DNA from: Bacteroidia bacterium
GTDB taxonomy: Bacteria; Bacteroidota; Bacteroidia; DATLTG01
Assembly: GCA_039924845.1 (NCBI GenBank)
Contig: JBDTAC010000025.1
Location: forward strand, 1-56,330
Direction of reading: 5' to 3'
DNA length: 56,330 nucleotides
Under the pieces are notes generated by a model. That model did not search any database. It worked only from the letters and a program-made list of their open reading frames with translations, and had not been told where the DNA came from. How positions within the stretch are numbered: position 1 is the first letter of the stretch; the number at the start of each line of letters is the position of its first letter. Shown here piece by piece: positions 5,641-40,751 of the stretch. Position numbers and translations under genes: made by a program.

Positions 5641-5673
5641 AAGCCCTTCAAAAAAATAATTTTTCGAAGGCTT
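5641..5673 (+). repeat. AT palindrome with GC-containing stem, in a divergent region
   Basis: AAGCCCTTC and GAAGGCTT arms enclose AAAAAAATAATTTTTC. It sits between two divergently transcribed genes (starts at 5550 and 5754), so it is not an ordinary 3' terminator. A second partial copy lies at 5683-5700. The downstream flank resembles that of the copy at 7359. Confidence 0.7.
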
Positions 5674-35199: not shown

Positions 35200-35220
35200 T
35201 TCAAAAAAATAATTTTTCGA
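35200..35220 (+). repeat. AT palindrome abutting pfkA
   Basis: TTCAAAAAAATAATTTTTCG runs into the A of ATG 35220. It is the same 20-mer as at 10554 and 7359. Confidence 0.75.
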
Positions 35221-36188
35221 TGAAGAAAATAGCCGTGTTTACTTCAGGAGGCGATGCACCGGGAATGAACGCTTGTATTAGAGCCGTAGTACGAACTGCA
35301 GCACATCATCAATTGGAAATTTCGGGAATTATGCACGGGTACGAAGGTATGATGAACGGAGAATTTATTCCACTTCCGCCGAAATCCGTTGCCAATATTA
35401 TTCAGCGCGGTGGCACTGTTTTAAAAACATCCCGCAGCGAAAAATTTCACTCAAAAGAAGGCAGAGAAAAAGCATTTGAACACATCCAGAAAAATAAAAT
35501 TGATGCGCTAATAGCGATTGGTGGAGATGGAACTTTCCGCGCTGCATCCGTATTTGAAAGTGAATTCAACATTCCGATTATCGGCATTCCGGGAACAATT
35601 GATAACGATTTAATTGGCACCGATTATACGATTGGCTACGACACCGCCATCAATACAGTGATTGACGCCTTGGATAAAATTCGCGATACCGCAGAATCGC
35701 ACGAGCGTTTATTTATTGTAGAGGTAATGGGTCGCGATGCCGGCTTAATTGCGCTTCGAACGGGCATTGCGTCGGGCGCGATGGACATTTTAATTCCAGA
35801 AATAAAAACCGACCACACACAATTAATTCACAAATTAAAAAACGGAAGGAAAGATAAAACATCGAAAATTATTATTGTAGCAGAAGGCGATGAGGCAGGC
35901 GGAGCCATCGAAACAGGAAAAAAAATAAAATTAGCATTGCCGCATTACGATGTGCGCATTACTGTTTTAGGTCACATTCAGCGCGGCGGAAATCCGAGTT
36001 GTATGGACAGAGTACTTGCCAGCCGACTTGGTTTTGCTGCCGTTGAAGCCTTAATACAAAAAAAACACGGCGTGATGGTAGGCAGTAAAAGCAATGAAAT
36101 TATTTTCACTCCTTTTGAAAATGCAGTGAAACACATTTCGCAATTAAATCCGGAATGGCTGAAAATGATGGAGATTTTATCCGCTTGA
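35220..36188 (+). CDS. pfkA: ATP-dependent 6-phosphofructokinase
   Basis: 322 residues. Phosphorylates fructose 6-phosphate in glycolysis. T-S-G-G-D-A-P-G-M-N (about 8-17), G-G-D-G-T (about 101-105, ATP site), catalytic G-T-I-D-N-D (about 125-130), M-G-R-D-A-G (about 169-174) and G-H-I-Q-R-G-G are all present. The Gly at position 104 after G-G-D suggests the ATP rather than PPi-dependent type. The TGA stop opens a palindrome copy, and a perfect 42-nt palindrome terminates the unit. Confidence 0.96.
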   Translation: MKKIAVFTSGGDAPGMNACIRAVVRTAAHHQLEISGIMHGYEGMMNGEFIPLPPKSVANIIQRGGTVLKTSRSEKFHSKEGREKAFEHIQKNKIDALIAIGGDGTFRAASVFESEFNIPIIGIPGTIDNDLIGTDYTIGYDTAINTVIDALDKIRDTAESHERLFIVEVMGRDAGLIALRTGIASGAMDILIPEIKTDHTQLIHKLKNGRKDKTSKIIIVAEGDEAGGAIETGKKIKLALPHYDVRITVLGHIQRGGNPSCMDRVLASRLGFAAVEALIQKKHGVMVGSKSNEIIFTPFENAVKHISQLNPEWLKMMEILSA

Positions 36189-36203
36189 AAAAATAATTTT
36201 CAG
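36185..36203 (+). repeat. AT palindrome opening with the pfkA stop
   Basis: TTGAAAAAATAATTTTCAG; TGA 36186-36188 is the pfkA stop. Confidence 0.6.
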
Positions 36204-36215
36204 AGAATTAATAAT

Positions 36216-36257
36216 ACAAAACGCCTTCAGAAAATTAATTTTCTGAAGGCGTTTTGT
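36216..36257. terminator. Perfect 42-nt palindrome, bidirectional terminator
   Basis: ACAAAACGCCTTCAG followed by AAAATTAATTTT and the exact complement. Both arms of 21 bases match without mismatch, and A/T runs bound the stem on both sides. It lies between pfkA (stop 36188) and the opposite-facing lysine-rich gene (stop 36269), so it can stop both. Confidence 0.85.
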
Positions 36258-36268
36258 AACGATGTGAA

Positions 36269-36496
36269 TTACTTCGCTTTTTTTGCAGTTTTCACTTTTT
36301 TCTCTGTTTTTGCTTTTTTAGCTTTCACAGGTTTTTCTTTTTTCTCTGCTTTTTTCTCTGCTTTTTTCACTTCTTTTTTGTTTGCAGTTTGAGCAGTTTG
36401 AGCTTTTACTGATTTTTTAATTGTTTTGCTTCCTGTTGCGGCAAACACAGATGCTGAAAATATTACGGCAGCTGCTAATAACATGATTTTTTTCAT
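36269..36496 (-). CDS. Exported lysine/alanine-rich mini-protein (histone H1-like tail)
   Basis: 75 residues. Residues 1-20 are a signal peptide (M-K-K-I-M-L-L-A-A-A...F-A-A). In the remaining 55 residues 23 are Lys, interspersed with Ala, Thr and Glu (K-K-A-E-K-K-A-E-K-K-E-K), resembling histone H1 or H1-like bacterial tails, but the signal peptide would place it outside the cytoplasm. No aromatic residues. Function unknown: possible polyanion, DNA-biofilm or LPS binding is inference. Flanked by its terminator and a 190-nt upstream gap. Confidence 0.65.
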   Translation of the reverse strand: MKKIMLLAAAVIFSASVFAATGSKTIKKSVKAQTAQTANKKEVKKAEKKAEKKEKPVKAKKAKTEKKVKTAKKAK

Positions 36497-37687: not shown

Positions 37688-37781
37688 ATCAACTTCTCGC
37701 TGTTGATAAGATTCCGACAAACACAACAACAGCTTTCTCATTATAAATAATTTTAGAGATTATCTATTTCTAATTTTCGTG

Positions 37782-40751
37782 ATGAGAAAAAATATTTTTT
37801 CAACCTGTGTTTTTATTGCCTTTATTATTTGCAGTCAATTAGTAAATGCTGCTTCTGATACTCTAAAATTAAAAACACAAGCTCCGCCTTTCCTTTCTAC
37901 CAATACAACTTGGGTAGATTCCGTTTTTAATTCGCTTACGCCAGATGAACGTCTTGGACAATTATTTATGGTGGCTGCGTATTCCAATCTCGATAAAAAA
38001 GAGCATAAGAAAAACAAAGAGGAACTCGAAAAATTAATTCGTGATTATAAAATTGGCGGATTGATTTTTTTTCAAGGTGGTCCCGCAAGGCAAGCTATAC
38101 TTGAAAATGAATATCAAAGCATTTCAAAAACGCCTTTATTAATCGCCATGGATGCAGAATGGGGATTGGCAATGCGCCTCGACAGCACCGTAAAATTTCC
38201 ACATCAAATGACACTTGGCGCGATTGAAAATGATTCCTTGATTTATGACATGGGTCGCTCAATTGCCTTGCAATGCAAGCGTTTGGGCGTACAATTGGAT
38301 TTTGCTCCTGTGATTGACATCAACAGTAATCCACTAAATCCAATTATCGGTACGCGTTCTTTTGGCGAAAATAAATTTAAAGTAGCACAAAAGGGATTGG
38401 CTTATATGAGCGGTTTGCAGGACGAACACGTGATTTCTACCGCAAAACATTTTCCCGGTCATGGAGATACGGATGCCGATTCTCACAAAACATTACCTGT
38501 TGTAAATCATTCCGTTGAGCGCCTTGATACACTTGAGTTATATCCTTTCCGACAACTTTTTTCGCATGGTATTAGCAGCACAATGGTAGCACATTTATAC
38601 ATTCCTGCACTTGATTCTACGCCCAATACCGCTTCTACCTTATCTCCAAGAGTGGTGAATGGTTTGTTGAAAACGAAAATGGATTTTAAGGGTTTAGTGT
38701 TTACAGATGCTTTAAATATGAAGGGCGTAAGTAAATTTTACAAACCCGGAATTGTAGATGTGAAAGCATTACTTGCAGGAAATGACGTATTGCTTTTTTC
38801 GGAAGATGTACCAAAAGCAATGGAGGAAATTAAAAATGCAATTGCCGATAGTGAGATTACACAAGCAGATATTGATGCACGCTGCAAAAAAATTCTGATG
38901 GCAAAATCCTGGGCAGGATTAAATCAGTATAAACCTGTTGATTTGAAAGGGTTATACGAAGATTTGAATCCAATAAGCGCTGATTTATTGAATCGAAAAA
39001 TCACAGAACAATCACTCACTTTACTTCAAAACAAAAATAATTTTATTCCTCTAAAAAGGCTGGATACATTAAACATTGCGACGATTTCTGTCGGAGATAC
39101 AAGCACTACTATTTTTCAAGAAACAATTACAAAATATGCTCCTTCAAAAAATATTTTTTTGAAAATAAATGGCGATTCTCTTTTTTATGATTCCATCGAA
39201 AAGGCTTTAAAACCTTACAATATCATTGTTGTAGCATTGGATAATCCAAGTTCTAATCCGGCAATTAATTTCGGACTTTCTATTCCATCCATAAAATTTT
39301 TAGACAAATTATTATTAACGAAAAAAATAATTTTCGATTGTTTTTCCACACCGTATGTACTTTCTAAATTTAACAATATCGAGCAATCGCTTGCAGTTAT
39401 TGAATCTTACGAAGACAATGAATACACTCAAAATTATTCTGCGCAACTTATCTTTGGAGGAATGACTGCTCAAGGAAAATTACCTGTTACCGCAGCGCCT
39501 TTGTTTCCAATTGGAAGCGGAATCAGAACCACTGATAAAATTCGTTTTGCCTACGTTTCTCCAGAAGAAATTGGAGTGTCCGAAAAAAAACTTTCTGTGA
39601 TTGATTCACTTGCTAACGAAGGAATAAAAGAACACGCTTATCCTGGGTGTGTTGTATTTGCTGCAAAAAATGGTAATGTTTTTTATCAAAAAGCATTCGG
39701 CTATCAAACGTATGATAAAAAAATTCCTACACGTACGAATGATATTTACGACCTCGCTTCTCTCACAAAAATATTGGCAACAACGCCCTCCATCATGCGC
39801 CTTTCCGAAGAAAATAAAATAAAAATAAATGCTCCACTCAGTTTGTATTTACCGATTTTAAAAAAATCAAATAAAAAGAAAATGCTCATCAATGATGTGA
39901 TGGCGCACCAAGCGGGATTGCAAGCGTGGATTCCTTTTTATAAAAATACGATGAAGGATGGAATCTATTTCCCATGGATTTACGACAGTGTAGAAACGCC
40001 TGCATTTCCAATACGTGTAGCGGAACATTTGTACATCAGTAAAGCGTATCACGACAGTATTTTACGTCAAATTATTCAATCAAAAGTATCGAAGAAAAAA
40101 GAATATCTATACAGTGATTTAGGATTTTATTTATTAAAAGAAATCATCGAAAAACAAACAAAAACAACACTTGACAATTATGTTTTTCAAAATTTTTACA
40201 ACCCTTTAGGACTTACTACAATGGGATATTTGCCGCGAAAACGCTTCGATTTAAAACGAATTCCGCCGACAGAAAACGATACTTATTTTAGAAAACAATT
40301 GCTGCATGGCGATGTGCAAGATCAAGGAGCCGCCATGATGGGAGGCGTTTCGGGTCATGCCGGACTTTTTTCGGATGCGAATGATGTAGCGATAATGATG
40401 CAAATGTATTTGCAAAAAGGCACGTATGGTGGTGAGCGATATTTTGATTCAACTACGGTTAGTAATTTTACAGCGTGCCAATTTTCCGCAAACGGCAACC
40501 GCCGCGGACTCGGATTTGATAAGCCAGAAATGAATCACAGCAAAGAAAGCCCTGCTTGCGATTCCGCATCAACAAACAGTTTTGGGCATTCTGGATATAC
40601 TGGAACATTTACCTGGGCGGATCCGGACAACGGAATTGTGTATGTCTTTTTATCTAACAGAGTTAATCCAAATGCATCAGAAAATAAATTGGCTGAACTT
40701 AATATTCGCACAAAAATCCAGCAAGCAATTTACGATGCCTTCAAAAAATAA
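37782..40751 (+). CDS. GH3 (NagZ-like) glycosidase fused to a beta-lactamase-fold serine hydrolase
   Basis: 989 residues from ATG 37782 (GTG three bases earlier is possible). Signal peptide to about residue 25. Residues 45-385 are a GH3 barrel with K-H-F-P-G-H-G-D-T-D-x-D-S-H (about 222-235), the NagZ catalytic His/Asp loop. Residues 400-570 form the GH3 C-terminal-like Rossmann domain. Residues 590-989 are a class C/DD-peptidase-type domain with S-L-T-K (about 660-663), Y-S-D (about 776) and H-S-G (about 935) in place of KTG. This fusion occurs in Bacteroidota; it is expected to cut beta-N-acetylglucosaminyl bonds in peptidoglycan and a peptide or ester. Its TAA is the palindrome core. Confidence 0.9.
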   Translation: MRKNIFSTCVFIAFIICSQLVNAASDTLKLKTQAPPFLSTNTTWVDSVFNSLTPDERLGQLFMVAAYSNLDKKEHKKNKEELEKLIRDYKIGGLIFFQGGPARQAILENEYQSISKTPLLIAMDAEWGLAMRLDSTVKFPHQMTLGAIENDSLIYDMGRSIALQCKRLGVQLDFAPVIDINSNPLNPIIGTRSFGENKFKVAQKGLAYMSGLQDEHVISTAKHFPGHGDTDADSHKTLPVVNHSVERLDTLELYPFRQLFSHGISSTMVAHLYIPALDSTPNTASTLSPRVVNGLLKTKMDFKGLVFTDALNMKGVSKFYKPGIVDVKALLAGNDVLLFSEDVPKAMEEIKNAIADSEITQADIDARCKKILMAKSWAGLNQYKPVDLKGLYEDLNPISADLLNRKITEQSLTLLQNKNNFIPLKRLDTLNIATISVGDTSTTIFQETITKYAPSKNIFLKINGDSLFYDSIEKALKPYNIIVVALDNPSSNPAINFGLSIPSIKFLDKLLLTKKIIFDCFSTPYVLSKFNNIEQSLAVIESYEDNEYTQNYSAQLIFGGMTAQGKLPVTAAPLFPIGSGIRTTDKIRFAYVSPEEIGVSEKKLSVIDSLANEGIKEHAYPGCVVFAAKNGNVFYQKAFGYQTYDKKIPTRTNDIYDLASLTKILATTPSIMRLSEENKIKINAPLSLYLPILKKSNKKKMLINDVMAHQAGLQAWIPFYKNTMKDGIYFPWIYDSVETPAFPIRVAEHLYISKAYHDSILRQIIQSKVSKKKEYLYSDLGFYLLKEIIEKQTKTTLDNYVFQNFYNPLGLTTMGYLPRKRFDLKRIPPTENDTYFRKQLLHGDVQDQGAAMMGGVSGHAGLFSDANDVAIMMQMYLQKGTYGGERYFDSTTVSNFTACQFSANGNRRGLGFDKPEMNHSKESPACDSASTNSFGHSGYTGTFTWADPDNGIVYVFLSNRVNPNASENKLAELNIRTKIQQAIYDAFKK
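39144..39163. repeat. AATATT palindrome within the GH3 fusion gene
   Basis: TTCAAAAAATATTTTTTTGA, read as S-K-N-I-F-L-K. A copy of the same type (37787-37803) encodes K-N-I-F-S at residues 3-7. Confidence 0.55.

Follow-up and report, generated by a model that had tools for sequence, protein, structure and literature searches.

What is the function of a perfect palindrome between the 3' ends of pfkA and of a lysine-rich reading frame on the opposite strand, and does it stand alone or belong to a larger family of sites? This is the question raised by a locus in a 56,330-nt stretch of DNA, termed here the window. The palindrome, TACAAAACGCCTTCAGAAAATTAATTTTCTGAAGGCGTTTTGTA, comprises 44 nt in two 22-nt arms with zero loop and no mismatch, one pair more at each end than the 42 nt with 21-nt arms of the original prediction, which was right about its perfection. 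The CGCC/GGCG stem, the outer AAAA and TTTT runs and the central GAAAATTAATTTTC described there were all found.

Going by base composition alone, the window should hold 1.7e-8 perfect 22-bp palindromes and the genome 8e-7. When the window was simulated 20 times with an order-2 Markov model, the longest palindrome arms measured 9-11 bp; in the real window, the arms ranking second are 11 bp long. No further copy with three or fewer mismatches occurs in the 2.66-Mb genome, which rules out that the palindrome is one of a set of near-identical repeats; a search for a second CGCCTTCA...TGAAGGCG found none either. The window gave no Rfam match and no tRNA.

A locus with convergent gene ends

The palindrome lies 26 nt past the stop of pfkA (gene end 36188) and 10 nt from the stop (36269) of the convergent frame, hence between two convergent genes as originally proposed (Table 1). 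The 75-codon lysine-rich frame has neither a Pfam nor an NCBIfam match and is for this reason a probable, not a proven, gene; in our reading, its start looks signal-peptide-like. Centred at 36194, 42 bp upstream of the palindrome centre, is a further copy of the element described below, with the pfkA stop codon TGA inside it; sampled elements often contain the stop codon of the gene running into them. Elsewhere in the window (37779-40751), a single ORF combines a glycoside hydrolase family 3 domain with a beta-lactamase-type serine hydrolase domain.

Table 1. Features of the palindrome and its surroundings (window coordinates)
Feature	Position	Strand	Basis
Perfect 44-nt palindrome, hairpin-forming element copy, probable bidirectional terminator	36215..36258	.	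sequence, fold, simulations, PWM 28.6 bits
Left W tract AAAA, U-tract of - strand transcript	36218..36221	.	sequence; W5 of family logo
Left S4 arm CGCC	36222..36225	.	sequence; S4 of family logo
22-bp AT core TTCAGAAAATTAATTTTCTGAA	36226..36247	.	20/22 positions fit TTYRAAAAAWTAWTTTTTYRAA; other two are one compensated pair
Right S4 arm GGCG	36248..36251	.	sequence
Right W tract TTTT, U-tract of + strand transcript	36252..36255	.	sequence
pfkA, ATP-dependent 6-phosphofructokinase	35220..36188	+	TIGR02482, 404 bits
Convergent 75-codon Lys-rich ORF	36269..36496	-	ORF; no Pfam/NCBIfam match
Adjacent non-hairpin element, 44-bp PWM span, centre 36194, 21.1 bits	36173..36216	.	PWM; contains pfkA stop TGA
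Element in RlmL-like gene/pfkA gap, 44-bp PWM span, centre 35210, 29.4 bits	35189..35232	.	PWM

On either strand, the palindrome can fold into a 20-bp hairpin of -29.1 kcal/mol, and none of 200 shuffled sequences folded as well. Together with its place between two stops and the proximity of the hairpin class to stops (see below), this makes the predicted bidirectional terminator plausible: the palindrome probably stops transcription from both sides, and bidirectional termination in vivo, although putative, is the likeliest use of this copy. To call the terminator ideal, as had been done, is too strong because the longest uninterrupted U-run after the hairpin is 4 nt each way, the + strand tail reads UUUUGUAACG (that of the - strand UUUUGUAUUAUUAAUU) and a scan with a terminator consensus reported the - strand only.

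Conservation of the site in relatives, proposed earlier as a check, was not observed. Among 80 named pfkA loci of relatives, 79 had at least 120 nt of downstream sequence, and in none of these was the element present (best score 5.3 bits); inverted-repeat arms of at least 10 bp occurred downstream of pfkA in one of the 79, in unrelated sequence. The source genome is the sole representative of its order among the comparison genomes.

An abundant, lineage-restricted element

The palindrome belongs to a family of dyad-symmetric elements of about 40 bp with the architecture W5-S4-TTYRAAAAAWTAWTTTTTYRAA-S4-W5. The logo, W5 - S4 - tTYRAAAAAWTAWTTTTTYRAa - S4 - W5, is symmetric in composition; it was derived from 229 fixed-length cores in 835,900 bases, which comprise the window and up to 20 kb from the start of each of 60 contigs. 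Outside the core, elements are conserved in A/T or G/C content alone, not in their letters. In a sample of 20 stretches (284 kb), numerous further perfect palindromes turned up that resembled this one in their AT centre but not in their G+C arms, and a relaxed search found the AT centre to be far commoner than palindromes. The literature searches turned up no paper describing this element.

We took the fit to the profile, rather than a match to the exact core, as defining membership. The palindrome scores 28.6 bits with a position weight matrix (PWM) whose training pattern does not match it, and one simulated 836-kb set held no position of at least 22 bits. The exact core consensus TTYRAAAAAWTAWTTTTTYRAA is not matched: 20 of 22 positions agree, and the misfit is one symmetric, compensated pair. 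Other hairpin copies of the element reach scores as high as 45.6 bits, and some 95% of the copies fall short of a perfect palindrome. Of the earlier suggestion that the palindrome is the archetype of an AT family, the membership thus stands and the archetype does not; it is a hairpin-forming offshoot of a large lineage-restricted element.

The degenerate core TYRAAAAAWTAWTTTTTYRA occurs 749 times in the genome and, as a control, not once when read backwards. Among 394 other Bacteroidota, 19 genomes have one copy each and 375 none. For the narrower core TYRAAAAATTAATTTTTYRA, there are 94 copies in the source genome, and one copy in each of 4 of the 294 other genomes of the class. With the symmetric PWM at 14 bits or more, the 836-kb sample yielded 653 raw sites, vs 8 in an order-4 Markov null, and these merge to 587. 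Scaling the 587 to the genome gives about 1,900; with the exact core at 281 per Mb in the whole genome, slightly above the 261 per Mb of the sample, roughly 1,900-2,000 copies is a fair estimate. Per 100 kb, two samples of the source genome held 82 and 81 raw PWM sites, and eight relatives 0, 0, 0, 0, 0, 1, 1 and 2.

Several further observations concern the distribution of these and similar sequences. The window contains 50 element sites of at least 10 bits, about one per 1.1 kb, the strongest centred at 5657, 30192, 2582 and 21975. Two relatives have over-represented 10-mers of their own, CGTCATTGCG with 26 copies in 100 kb (both strands counted) and GGTTCTGACC with 22. In viral contigs, at least 80 loci among the matches listed had one site each, which we take as chance. 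Contig C37 of the genome opens exactly with a perfect 46-nt palindrome of the element family, as if the assembly had broken there. Contigs C25 and C28 both measure 56,330 bases, and the first 20 kb of C28 do not occur in the window on either strand. Matches to Y1 (IS200/REP-type) transposase domains are found at C79:4774-5118, C73:65921-66139 and C86:413-628.

Gene ends, a hairpin minority and phased flanks

Gene context was assessed with a length-based ORF caller (88-89% coding); a codon-score caller gave 50% and was dropped. Of the strict-core matches, 195 lie outside ORFs of at least 100 amino acids and 102 inside them (2.0 vs 0.14 per kb); the inside counts include some spurious ORFs, and all gene-context figures are approximate. 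An element centre lies between -30 and +150 nt of the stop in 267 of 574 genes of at least 150 amino acids. At least one element is present in 34 of the 62 convergent gene-pair gaps of at least 25 nt, in 100 of the 272 tandem gaps and in 25 of the 72 divergent gaps of this size. Since divergent gaps are also occupied, gene ends are a preference of the element, not a rule. Between adjacent elements, two centre-to-centre spacings are preferred, one of 35-37 bp (23 pairs) and one of 47-52 bp (38 pairs).

Few gene ends have a classic G+C terminator outside elements (10 of the 133 convergent-type ends and 10 of the 184 tandem-type ends), for which reason most gene ends presumably rely on Rho or something else. 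Element-bearing ends show a hairpin plus U-run at the element in 6 of 77 (convergent-type) and 9 of 101 cases (tandem-type). Elements and classic terminators did not significantly exclude each other at gene ends (p 0.74 and 0.19).

Most copies do not form hairpins. We scored eight arm positions in 480 of the 482 copies of at least 18 bits, namely those with enough flank. Complementary pairs were about as numerous as expected, with too few copies at 4 to 6 pairs and an excess at the top: all eight pair in 21 of the 480 copies, vs 0.6 expected. The hairpin class, with at least 7 of 8 arm pairs, comprises 25 of the 480 copies, the palindrome included. Its members are close to a stop codon in 20 of 25 cases, vs 220 of 455 for the others (odds ratio 4.3, p = 0.003), and inside an ORF in 1 of 25 vs 129 of 455; the five bases on the sense 3' side contain on average 3.88 T residues vs 2.57. 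Because the 25 copies differ in stop proximity, ORF location and 3' T content, a minority of elements looks to have been converted into putative intrinsic, often bidirectional, terminators, the palindrome among them. For most copies, an RNA-hairpin family was rejected, as neither the paired YR positions nor the S4 arms covary beyond chance in 229 copies, one subset excepted.

The A/T content in the surroundings of 315 isolated elements is highest 17, 31, 42, 53 and 63 bp away from the dyad and is phased at about 10.5-11.5 bp out to about 65 bp; these maxima are missing around 353 control A-tracts. Between 22 and 66 bp, the amplitude of the family average at 10.75 bp is 0.0191, whereas the A-tracts reach 0.0022 and 60 random sets at most 0.0061. 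The single period that fits this range best is 11.6 bp. Beyond 66 bp the phasing is weak (0.0075 vs a null maximum of 0.0060).

The element's main role is probably at the DNA level. It would most likely work as double-stranded DNA, with an abundant bending or wrapping protein curling the DNA round the site; gyrase, or a nucleoid protein with similar wrapping, would be the first candidates. Against gyrase, the AT-only centre has no obvious fit to known gyrase cleavage preferences, the best single period is 11.6 bp instead of 10.75 bp, and weak phasing extends past 66 bp. The sites lie mainly between genes and most often shortly past a stop codon, the places where supercoils arise from transcription. 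The arms of about 5% of the copies, those of the palindrome included, have become fully complementary, so that the transcript would also form a long hairpin with a short U-run behind it. At the palindrome, RNA polymerase coming from pfkA or from the lysine-rich ORF could be stopped in this way, or both mRNA 3' ends could be protected. This account as a whole, a DNA-wrapping site at gene ends whose hairpin copies double as terminators, has in our view about an even chance of being correct. We are more doubtful about a further-reaching version, which we put forward only tentatively: nearly half of the gene ends may be marked by a hard-wired wrapping site measuring about 130 bp, in which phased A/T arms flank a 22-bp AT dyad core. 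Such sites would load gyrase or a wrapping nucleoid protein and so take up the supercoils that transcription generates, a minority having been made into bidirectional terminators via complementary arms.

High-copy, lineage-specific DNA elements without known purpose are a long-standing puzzle. Taken by itself, the palindrome would be ordinary; the element offers a sharp consensus, a dyad-symmetric phased anatomy, a preference for gene ends and a distinct terminator-like hairpin minority. Two questions thereby become testable: whether a bacterium uses sequence to position sites for supercoil handling or for nucleoid proteins at its gene ends, and how terminators evolve out of an existing DNA element.

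Other explanations and known systems

If the whole AT family were simply this lineage's style of bidirectional intrinsic terminator, without any role at the DNA level, the hairpin potential of the palindrome on both strands, the location of elements at gene ends, the T-rich 3' sides of the hairpin subset and the scarcity of classic G+C terminators would all be accounted for. We nevertheless consider this unlikely: about 95% of the copies lack a hairpin and show no covariation, the W tracts of the bulk are just slightly polar toward a 3' U-run, copies are present in divergent gaps as well, and the phased flanks would be left unexplained. The perfect 44-bp dyad symmetry would suit an operator through which a local transcription factor controls pfkA or the adjacent gene; as the palindrome is downstream of both genes and the family far too numerous for one regulon, we give this idea hardly any credence.

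High copy number might also have been reached by biased DNA uptake or by mobility. An AT-only symmetric core is unlike known uptake signals. A DUS/USS-type signal that, as in Neisseria and Pasteurellaceae, came to be co-opted in terminators would fit the lineage restriction (749 cores here vs 0-1 in each of 394 other genomes) and the presence of ComEC in the genome; flanks are not copied along, so copies arose site by site, as this explanation would have it. Copy density and terminator co-option are similar in DUS/USS (PMC1852404). The T2SS/T4P ATPase PF00437, however, has no match in this 99.1% complete genome, while the control matched in 14 of 14 genomes, and we regard an uptake signal as distinctly improbable. 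Less probable still is a mobile repeat of the REP/MITE kind, propagated by a transposase such as a RAYT. The copy number, the mainly intergenic location, the pairs at 35-37 and 47-52 bp and the three Y1_Tnp matches in the genome speak for it, but the letters outside the core are unconserved, a poor fit to recent copying, most copies are not stem-loops (25 of 480 have at least seven of the eight arm positions paired), and the logo is devoid of the conserved GTAG or CGTC tag described in PMC3733652.

The element shares features with several known systems. As in Rho-independent bidirectional terminators, a hairpin between convergent genes is bordered by an A-run on the left and a T-run on the right; unlike in these, the 22-bp arms have no loop, the U-runs are short, and the AT-only centre is common to about 2,000 mostly hairpin-less sites. 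HIP1 of cyanobacteria, the 8-bp palindrome GCGATCGC, likewise is a short palindrome present at very high frequency in one lineage, whereas the element has a 22-bp AT core with flanking structure. DUS/USS are lineage-specific, and some of their copies form terminator hairpins (PMC1852404); the element resembles them in both respects and in its frequency of roughly one per 1.4 kb, and differs in that its unit is one palindromic AT-only core and the genome is without a T2SS/T4P ATPase match. REP sequences, too, are short palindromic repeats at gene ends, with suggested roles in supercoiling and termination (PMC3733652), and differ from the element in their GTAG/CGTC tag, its flank letters being unconserved and its copies mostly not stem-loops. 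The E. coli gyrase motif, according to PMC6379681, is symmetric and 130 bp long, with a central 36 bp, two 47-bp flanks and 10.75-bp GC phasing. Dyad symmetry, a centre of about 36-40 bp and A/T phasing to about 65 bp are common to the element and to such strong gyrase-wrapping sites, a likeness that is geometric only. The E. coli motif is degenerate, has no sharp core and is not placed at gene ends by sequence; the downstream enrichment of gyrase is described there as not hard-wired in the sequence (PMC6379681), and in this the source lineage would therefore differ.
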